This document shows, piece by piece, positions 63,068-64,000 of a DNA stretch of 64,000 nt. The notes beneath the pieces were generated by a model, which was not told where the DNA came from, searched no databases, and worked only from the letters and a program-made list of their open reading frames with translations. Made by a program: the position numbers and the translations under genes. Within the stretch, counting starts at the first letter, position 1; every line of letters starts with the position of its first letter. This DNA comes from Romboutsia hominis (GTDB lineage: Bacteria > Bacillota > Clostridia > Peptostreptococcales > Peptostreptococcaceae): positions 124,001 through 188,000 of the forward strand of contig NZ_LN650648.1 in assembly GCF_900002575.1 (NCBI RefSeq). The letters run 5' to 3'.

Positions 63068-63134
63068 TATCAAAAATACCCTTCTATTAATATCATATTA
63101 GTATGAAAGTATTATGATTAATGGGGGGATTTTT

Positions 63135-63737
63135 TTGAGAAACTTCAATGAGAAATATTCATTGGTTAGAGTATTGCATGCCTTGGTAAGTGGAGAAGAA
63201 TTAGATGTATATATAGATGGATTTCCTTTTTATATGGATGTAAGATTTGCTCAATTTACACCATATATATATGTACCAGAAGGAGAGCATATATTTAGCG
63301 TTTATTTAAAAGAGGAAAGGGATAGTCCTTTGAGTGAGGTTAGTATCGATGTAAAAAATGATGAGCTTATAACAGCAGCTATTATAGAAAAAAATGATAA
63401 AGTAGATATACTTCCTATACCAGAGAAAATGGGAGTTCCAGAAGATAATACATCGAAGATTAAGTTTGTACACTTAGTTCCAGAAGCACCAAATGTTAAT
63501 ATACTAATGGGTGGAGAAGAAATATTTAATAATGTAGGTTATACAGATTATACAGAGTATGAAAATGTGCCAATAGGAGAGTATAAGATGGATATAGAAT
63601 TGACGGAAAATAAAAAAACAGTTTTAAGCAACTTAGTAAATATAAATCCAAATAGAATATATACATTTTATGTTATTGGGATATCGCCTAATATAGATAT
63701 GATTCAGACATTAGATGGAGCAACTTTCTTACAGTGA
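63135..63737 (+). CDS. DUF4397-domain protein
   Basis: A 200-residue protein with two DUF4397-like beta-sandwich units: residues about 5-90 (VRVLHALVSGEELDVYIDG) and about 112-195 (IKFVHLVPEAPNVNILMGG). The repeated R/K-(F/V)-(V/L)-H-(A/L) opening shows the internal duplication. No signal peptide is visible, which is unusual because many family members are exported. TTG at 63135 is preferred, 7 bases after GGGGGG. Function unknown; possibly cell envelope or spore related. Confidence 0.85.
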   Translation: MRNFNEKYSLVRVLHALVSGEELDVYIDGFPFYMDVRFAQFTPYIYVPEGEHIFSVYLKEERDSPLSEVSIDVKNDELITAAIIEKNDKVDILPIPEKMGVPEDNTSKIKFVHLVPEAPNVNILMGGEEIFNNVGYTDYTEYENVPIGEYKMDIELTENKKTVLSNLVNINPNRIYTFYVIGISPNIDMIQTLDGATFLQ

Positions 63738-63768
63738 TAGATATAAACTATAAAAATTTGTTATTATT

Positions 63769-63801
63769 AAAAGTATAGATAAATTTATCTATACTTTTTT
63801 A
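63769..63801 (+). terminator. Terminator of the DUF4397 gene
   Basis: A perfect 30-base palindrome, AAAAGTATAGATAAA / TTTATCTATACTTTT, then T residues. Confidence 0.92.
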
Positions 63802-63892
63802 CGCTTAAGGAAATTATCATACTTCAAAAACTATAGATAACTATTGTAGCTAAGTAATACCAATTAGTTTAGTAAGCGCAAAAAAGACAATT

Positions 63893-63966
63893 TGAAGCGC
63901 TTCGCGATACGTCGCTCAAGCAACGGATGAAGTGTAGCGCCCACGTAGTGGCTTAAGCGAAGCGAA
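63893..63966. repeat. GC-rich self-complementary element
   Basis: About 74 bases at roughly half G+C in a window near 30% G+C. CGCTTCGC (63898-63905) is the exact reverse complement of GCGAAGCG (63957-63964); inside, TCGCTCAAGC pairs with GCTTAAGCGA (one G:U) as an alternative, and GCCCAC / GTGGC forms a central hairpin. A-run on the left and T-run on the right. No reading frame explains it. Best guess is a copy of a dispersed palindromic repeat or structured RNA. Confidence 0.7.
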
Positions 63967-64000
63967 TTTTTTATGTTCAAAGTTATATTTATGTGGTATA

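Follow-up and report, generated by a model that had tools for sequence, protein, structure and literature searches.

A short element behind an intrinsic terminator in Romboutsia hominis, very probably a miniature relative of terminator-targeting IS91-family transposons

The GC-rich island and the element that contains it

The window analysed here is a stretch of 64,000 nucleotides from Romboutsia hominis, and the features described below lie on the forward strand close to its right edge. An ORF at 63114..63737 encodes a DUF4397 domain protein of 207 aa (Pfam PF14344, E 7.4e-39). It is followed by the intrinsic-terminator hairpin of this gene (63773..63794), GTATAGATA-AATT-TATCTATAC, whose stem ends at a T-run and which has a folding energy of -7.9 kcal/mol, or -11.1 kcal/mol when the flanking A/T pairs are included. 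The T-run (63795..63800) forms the left junction of an inserted element at 63801..63972, the terminator hairpin being the insertion target. The ORF that follows the element starts at 64035 (locus L001), just past the window; judging by its translation, it may encode a class B sortase.

A preliminary description of this DNA had singled out 63893-63966 as a GC-rich island explained by no gene, and in both respects it was correct. The GC content is 55.4% (0.554) compared with 28.9% (0.289) for the whole window; equally GC-rich 74-nt stretches make up 0.006% of the window's total and all start within 63500-63999, and nowhere else in the window is the DNA as rich over this length. No listed ORF covers the island, the upstream ORF ending at 63737 and the downstream one starting outside the window. 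The coordinates of the island were nevertheless too narrow. It is the right half of a 172-bp element directly behind the DUF4397 gene terminator, and the repeated unit is 63801-63972, because the copies found elsewhere also have the AT-rich left flank, which had been omitted, in common. The extent of the unit was read from an alignment of 19 copies in the R. hominis genome and 87 in relatives.

The left end of the element (63801..63866) is homologous to the left end of an IS91-family transposon in genome G063, the alignment reaching as far as the first part of the transposase reading frame. An internal A-run (63880..63885) can, together with the preceding bases, pair with the left T-run (inverted repeat I2, arms 63794-63807 and 63873-63886, 93% complementary). 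The GC-rich right half (63893..63966) is a modular hairpin array, with an inverted repeat of its own and related modules in other copies, and the element ends in T6 (63967..63972). The A-run and T-run that had been reported to flank the island are thus present. The remark that the sequence looks the same on both strands misses what matters: the element has a polarity, and it is the AT-rich end that faces the terminator. As to the two helices proposed for the island, the outer inverted repeat is exact (CGCTTCGC at 63898-63905 with GCGAAGCG at 63957-63964, from an inverted-repeat search), while by direct reading one of the 10 positions is mismatched in the second helix, formed by TCGCTCAAGC and GCTTAAGCGA. 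The folding itself is unexceptional, with z-scores of -0.12, -0.81 and -0.43 against dinucleotide shuffles (RNA of both strands, and DNA). At 172 bp and without a listed ORF, the element has no transposase gene aboard.

Distribution of the family and its position behind terminators

When the R. hominis genome was searched with the island alone, 6 matches were found (E <=0.001); inclusion of the left flank gave 44 (E <=1), a list that includes chance matches because E was allowed up to 1. Alignment of the 19 copies defines a base form of approximately 147 nt, counted from the left T-run. This T-run is followed by ACGCTTAAGGAAATTAT or a variant, often by a TGTGGATAA motif, then by GCGTAAAAAAG or a variant, hairpin modules and TTTTTTAT; the window copy has additional modules beyond the base form. 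The GC-rich module array of the short elements ends in GCGAAGCGAATTTTTTAT, and complete ends include ...GAGCGAAGCGAATTTTTTAT. A degenerate counterpart of TGTGGATAA is found in the window at 63832-63840 (TATAGATAA), and a similar motif immediately precedes the transposase gene in the autonomous elements described below. We take TGTGGATAA to be the DnaA-box consensus in reverse complement. Within the final 60 nt of 101 copies there are 80 GNA-triloop mini-hairpins (e.g. GCGAAGC) versus a mononucleotide-shuffle mean of 7.8, an excess for which the copies are not independent cases because they are related by ancestry. Motifs of the GCGAAGC type are unusually stable in single-stranded DNA.

The family was surveyed more widely with a sequence model (R1) built from 8 R. 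hominis copies, which misses distant relatives. It has 36 matches in R. hominis, and 45 of the 71 genomes of the bacterial family (18 of 23 genera) contain at least one. Since the best 44 candidate places were considered per genome, high counts are lower bounds, with R. ilealis (G001) and R. lituseburensis (G007) having at least 44 each. A class-wide scan with R1, under strict filters and with the best 10 candidates per genome, returned matches in 2 of 291 sampled genomes, these being R. hominis itself and a Clostridium genome (G153). The latter contains a second short family of approximately 200 bp with a different GC-rich half (at least 41 matches), and its flanks are identical to loci of Clostridium sp. 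CMCC3677. A left-end pattern, scanned against 84,980 species genomes, identified 79 stretches from Clostridium, Romboutsia, Tepidibacter and unclassified Clostridiales, of which a few, such as L357, resemble chance matches in coding DNA. Searches of plasmids and phages with the element DNA, and of viral contigs with two exact element patterns, did not find it. Tandem copies occur at seven loci, where the second element starts in the terminal T-run of the first (L030:1501-1780, L151, L136, L143, L150, L160 and L162).

The suggestion that the island belongs to a mobile, MITE-like dispersed repeat is therefore borne out: the proposed search for dispersed copies with the same ends found many, both at home and in relatives. 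The element is short, non-coding and multicopy, as MITEs are, and has sequence ends in common with an autonomous element on the left only. Terminal inverted repeats of the strict MITE kind are absent; the inverted repeat joins the left end to the internal A-run, not to the right end. Having no transposase gene, the window element is classed only as a non-autonomous IS91 relative.

Most copies lie directly behind a terminator hairpin. Of the 18 non-tandem copies in R. hominis, 17 follow a hairpin that reaches -8 kcal/mol or lower and ends at the T-run (range -8.7 to -23.6 kcal/mol), the exception being L069 at -6.4 kcal/mol; these counts use the same single-hairpin test as was applied elsewhere, earlier fold energies having been able to include a second hairpin. 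For 15 of the 18 copies an ORF ends on the same strand within 150 nt upstream, although the ORF caller is crude and placed a spurious-looking ORF over 3 of the 18, the window copy not among them. Relatives contributed 87 copies. Of these, 6 were classed as starting in the T-run of another copy; the remaining 81 include one tandem copy that was overlooked (the second at L160) and a pair of identical ones (L145). A hairpin of -8 kcal/mol or stronger precedes 61 of these 81, compared with 37 of 303 control T-runs (T-runs of the window followed by A). The species scan gave a similar result, with 62 of 81 sites having the hairpin versus 89 of 928 control T-runs from the same loci (Fisher 5e-40). 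The two samples overlap, R. timonensis (G074) and R. lituseburensis (G007) being present in both, and without these two species the scan retains 36 of 48 sites with a hairpin. Control T-runs thus have a hairpin in 10-12% of cases in both samples, and no hairpin of -8 was present at 20 of 81 sites (relatives) and 19 of 81 (species scan). The counts are less than fully independent because copies are related and sites are common to several of them.

Eight element-bearing loci, chosen because by eye they resembled T-box leaders or 5S rRNA ends, were checked against Rfam, and comprised five T-box leaders and three 5S rRNA 3' ends. At the former (L159, L208, L266, L292 and L363) the element lies just 3' of the leader terminator, where it separates a regulated attenuator from the region downstream, and may add a second terminator-like end to a controlled transcript. 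At the latter (L163, L181 and L207, from three genomes) it begins 6-7 nt past the 3' end of the 5S rRNA gene.

A constant position and orientation behind terminators might also be expected of a structured RNA or a host regulatory module kept there by selection, and the exact occurrence of TGTGGATAA in 52 of 101 copies could be read in the same way. Some compensatory variants (ACGC/GCGT, ATGC/GCAT and ACAT/ATGT) are seen in the helix that the left T-run forms with the internal A-run, though not in every copy; this tally is rough, the 3' arm having been mis-picked in some rows, and in a subfamily with ACGCT and GAAAGTAAAAAA pairing is confined to the T-run and the bases that adjoin it. Four other pieces fold with z-scores of -0.75, -2.09, -0.92 and +1.03, the second of these belonging to the copy at L057, whereas the other values, like those of the window copy, are near zero. 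RNAalifold predicted no pairs for the 19 aligned copies (a weak test, as the A-runs are misaligned), and every match in an Rfam search, ribozymes included, was under the cut-off of its family. Furthermore, the element differs in presence between related species at the same loci, and tandem copies occur. The structured-RNA alternative raised in the preliminary description is thus without clear support, and we regard a selected RNA or host module as very unlikely.

Insertion junctions and the search for a transposase

Presence of the element varies between related species at the same loci, which allows occupied and empty sites to be compared. A first comparison covered six places, of which sites 1, 2 and 5 were readable, 3 and 4 unreadable, and 6 did not concern the element; site 2 is without a terminator. 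A second comparison covered nine places and yielded three element insertions (I3, I4 and I7), with I3 lacking the right part; I9 has element remnants in both species, and I1, I2, I5, I6 and I8 are other differences. At I7 (occupied in G007, empty in G077) the empty site reads hairpin-TTTTTA-TTATTC and the occupied site hairpin-TTTTTA-[element]-TTTTTTA-TTATTC. At I4 (occupied in G077, empty in G007) an interrupted target run, TTTATTT(T)A, is kept on the left and TTTTTTA is found on the right. The left T-run therefore belongs to the target and the right T6 to the element. At those empty sites that can be read, then, the hairpin and T-run to the left of the element are the target's, and the hairpins and T6 at its right end came with the element. 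For the window copy, the assignment of the left T-run to the target rests on direct reading and on analogy with I4 and I7; it has TTTTTTA at both junctions, and the cut can be located only to somewhere within this heptamer.

Identical TTTTTTA junctions are also what a bcr1-like MITE would leave if it were moved by a DDE transposase that duplicates a T-rich target. The size of bcr1 is similar at 147 bp (PMC2267715) and a TTTAT motif is described for it (PMC6542083), in the extracts of these papers used here. Across 98 copies, left and right T-runs are equal in length slightly more often than when permuted (64 versus 59.4, p 0.037). Yet the lengths show a correlation of -0.15, and the right run is nearly constant, being exactly six T in 83 of the 98, and is not a copy of the target run at I4 and I7. 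Target-site duplication is absent at these two sites, and a duplication of T alone is possible at plain T-run sites. Together with the absence of terminal inverted repeats and the homology of the left end to that of an HUH transposon, this makes a DDE-mobilised MITE improbable.

Profile searches of the R. hominis genome gave no match to Y1_Tnp (PF01797), RVT_1 (PF00078) or Y2_Tnp; since Y1, Y2 and reverse-transcriptase matches are all lacking, the window element is probably immobile now. An IS91-type transposase was likewise found in neither R. hominis, R. ilealis (G001) nor R. lituseburensis (G007). Among the 71 genomes of the family, Y1_Tnp is present in 37 and Y2_Tnp in 8. In the 18 genomes with at least 30 R1 matches, Y1_Tnp occurs in 9, RVT_1 in 5 and Y2_Tnp in 2, and 7 have none of the three. 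Y2_Tnp does not clearly track the element, R1 matches occurring in 7 of the 8 genomes with Y2_Tnp and in 38 of the 63 others.

These data bear on the proposal that the repeat is of the REP or REPIN type, moved by a Y1 transposase (RAYT or IS200/IS605) acting on single-stranded hairpins. The element is hairpin-rich, has no copied target sequence and is inserted 3' of a short motif, and Y1 transposases occur in just over half of the family's genomes. A left-end-like element piece lies directly beside one of the four Y1 copies of R. ilealis (L093). However, inspection of 11 Y1 loci from 8 relatives revealed only separate copies or pieces of the element, with no ends common to the Y1 copies: besides the piece at L093 (G001), there are separate copies at L099 (G007) and a weak match at L097. 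Nine of the 18 copy-rich genomes have no Y1_Tnp, and it is the IS91 left end that matches instead. REP/RAYT was rejected after searches for Y1_Tnp in 31 and then 71 genomes, with 0 Y1/RAYT matches at home. The REP-associated tyrosine transposase that the preliminary description had suggested looking for is thus not found in R. hominis, and its REP-type reading is unsupported; IS91 transposases surfaced in relatives instead. We consider mobilisation by Y1 highly improbable.

A retroelement was also considered, in which a reverse transcriptase like that of group IIC introns, which prefer terminators, would insert at such sites. According to the extract of PMC10190682, these introns recognise their insertion site by a DNA stem-loop upstream of it. 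On the other hand, RVT_1 is absent from R. hominis and from 13 of the 18 copy-rich genomes, no reverse-transcriptase gene was noticed inside an element with these ends, and there is an IS91 relative whose left end and target are the same. A group II intron was rejected on the search for RVT_1 in 71 genomes, with 0 at home. We also take the ends of the element to be unlike those of group II introns. This is the explanation to which we give least credence, as one that is barely tenable.

Autonomous IS91-family relatives, proposed mechanism and known systems

The first lead to an autonomous relative was L300, from a Clostridium metagenome bin, where the left end is that of the short elements and leads into an open frame. 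The encoded protein of 418 aa matches PF04986 (Y2_Tnp, 4.7e-38) and PF14319 (Zn_Tnp_IS91, 9.5e-25), and scores 301.9 bits with the NCBIfam model transpos_IS91 (cut-off 125), which identifies it as an IS91-family transposase. A second stretch, L356, continues with sequence similar to L300, with no ORF of 100 aa there. The HUH motif NPH(I/V)HAL and the two-tyrosine motif YIGRY (YxxxY) are invariant in 5 of 5 aligned transposases. The left flank of L300 resembles its own right end, so that tandem insertion is apparently not confined to the short form.

Genome G063 contains 14 copies of a 1.7-kb IS91-family element, with identities to the reference copy of 99.7% or higher, and all 14 lie directly behind a terminator hairpin and T-run (-8.7 to -21.7 kcal/mol). 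A fixed tetranucleotide target (e.g. GAAC), which characterises the IS91/IS801 members studied so far but not the protein family as such, is not found at these 14 insertions. Of seven further IS91 copies with a readable left end, six are behind a terminator hairpin; the R. timonensis copy is inside a gene and has no such hairpin (-3.1). The terminator test covered the G063 copies and the Y2 loci L364 and L366-L369, plus L300 and L356 from the pattern scan; L370-L371, L373-L376 and L378-L379, which are fragments or have no readable left end, fall outside it. Relatives of the transposase also occur on plasmids, and five were examined by eye among the 15 matches listed of at least 5000 records. 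For three of these (L393, L394 and L395, from plasmids of Enterococcus faecium, Lacticaseibacillus paracasei and Pediococcus pentosaceus) a terminator precedes the element and the left end is similar; two from Fusobacteriota have no clear terminator or left-end pattern.

The short elements and the autonomous transposons agree in three respects: their left ends are homologous, their right ends are similarly laid out, and they have the same target. Alignment of the left end of the window element with that of G063 gives a score of 28 (z 7.4), the highest among 1000 mononucleotide shuffles being 16.8; the homology spans only about 66 nt. The same 66 nt give z-scores of 5.0, 4.2 and 6.0 against three other IS91 left ends, and the comparison of R. 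ilealis with R. timonensis reaches 7.5. Over 16 such comparisons, z was below 3.7 in 5 and the shuffle maximum was not beaten in 6; all four that involve the window copy beat it. At the right, the autonomous elements of G063, G013, G086 and R. timonensis have by eye an A-run, hairpins and TTTTTTAT, as in the short elements. This layout of A-run, hairpins and T6AT is what the right ends have in common, no likeness between the right-half sequences of short and autonomous elements being visible by eye. We conclude that the window element is very probably a miniature, non-autonomous relative of an IS91-family (HUH, rolling-circle) clade that prefers intrinsic terminators as its target. The short elements may be internally deleted or recombined forms of IS91-type transposons, and would have been moved in trans by an IS91-type transposase since lost from the R. 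hominis genome, with many of them now apparently stranded without a transposase.

As regards mechanism, the right end of the element resembles the target, a T-run following a hairpin in both. The transposase would act on single-stranded DNA and cut 3' of a hairpin and T-run, both at the right end of the element (the ori side) and at the target, such that a terminator might be read as a copy of the transposase's own end. Cutting behind a hairpin and T-run at both places would explain the terminator bias and the lack of a copied target sequence, as well as tandem insertions and the likely harmlessness of insertion. That a single-stranded hairpin with a T-run serves an IS91-type clade in Bacillota as both its own ori end and its target is a proposal whose chances we consider evenly balanced. 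If it is true, intrinsic terminators, numerous in every genome, would be pre-made landing pads; the right end of the element being a landing pad itself, insertions would spare the upstream terminator and consume no sites. A position behind a terminator is among the safest in a compact genome, because insertion there breaks no gene and ends no transcript early. The extra terminator-like ends behind some T-box leaders could alter gene regulation. The proposal would further account for many repeats in clostridial intergenic regions, and would provide a case, open to testing, in which a transposon chooses targets that mimic its own end.

Among known systems, REP and REPIN sequences are likewise short, intergenic and palindromic, but the window element is larger and its genome has no Y1 transposase match; the ends and target of REP/REPIN elements also differ from those of the window element. 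The bcr1 repeat of the Bacillus cereus group is an intergenic, MITE-like element of approximately 150 bp with tens of copies and a T-rich motif (PMC2267715, PMC6542083, PMC3446304); compared by description only, it differs in that the extracts of these papers mention neither an IS91 link nor terminator targeting. Helitrons are similar in their HUH chemistry, the hairpin near the 3' end and the lack of target duplication (PMC4778049, PMC5876387), and most are described as having no coding sequence (PMC4683698), but they are eukaryotic, have a helicase and insert between A and T.

IS91, IS801 and ISCR elements are akin in that the autonomous relatives found here have an IS91 transposase. According to the extracts of the papers cited, IS91 and its relatives use HUH chemistry on single strands without target duplication (PMC5876387), and movement starts at the right end (ori) and stops at the left (ter), with the transposase working in trans (PMC3189936); ori is placed at the 5' end in PMC9330008. 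In ISCR elements the transposase promoter is in the ter end and secondary structures are present at both ends (PMC13393415). Miniature derivatives of IS801 are known, their left end marked by a target-like motif (PMC3189936). The IS91 transposase family and IS801 miniatures are thus known, the latter with tetranucleotide targets: as far as that extract goes, IS801 uses GAAC, GGAC, CAAG and CGAC, whereas the target here is a T-run 3' of a terminator hairpin. IS801 miniatures are, by the same account, right-end fragments, whereas the short elements here keep both ends and have tens of matches per genome. None of the best-ranked titles of a literature search dealt with IS91 elements that target terminators, or with this repeat.

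In target recognition, group IIC introns are a counterpart: their target, by the extract of PMC10190682, is a DNA stem-loop with the insertion site behind it. These introns depend on a ribozyme and a reverse transcriptase, whereas RVT_1 has no match in the R. hominis genome and none of the ribozyme matches attained its Rfam cut-off. If the mechanism put forward here is correct, the IS91-type clade would be a structure-reading DNA transposon, and as such a DNA counterpart of group IIC introns.
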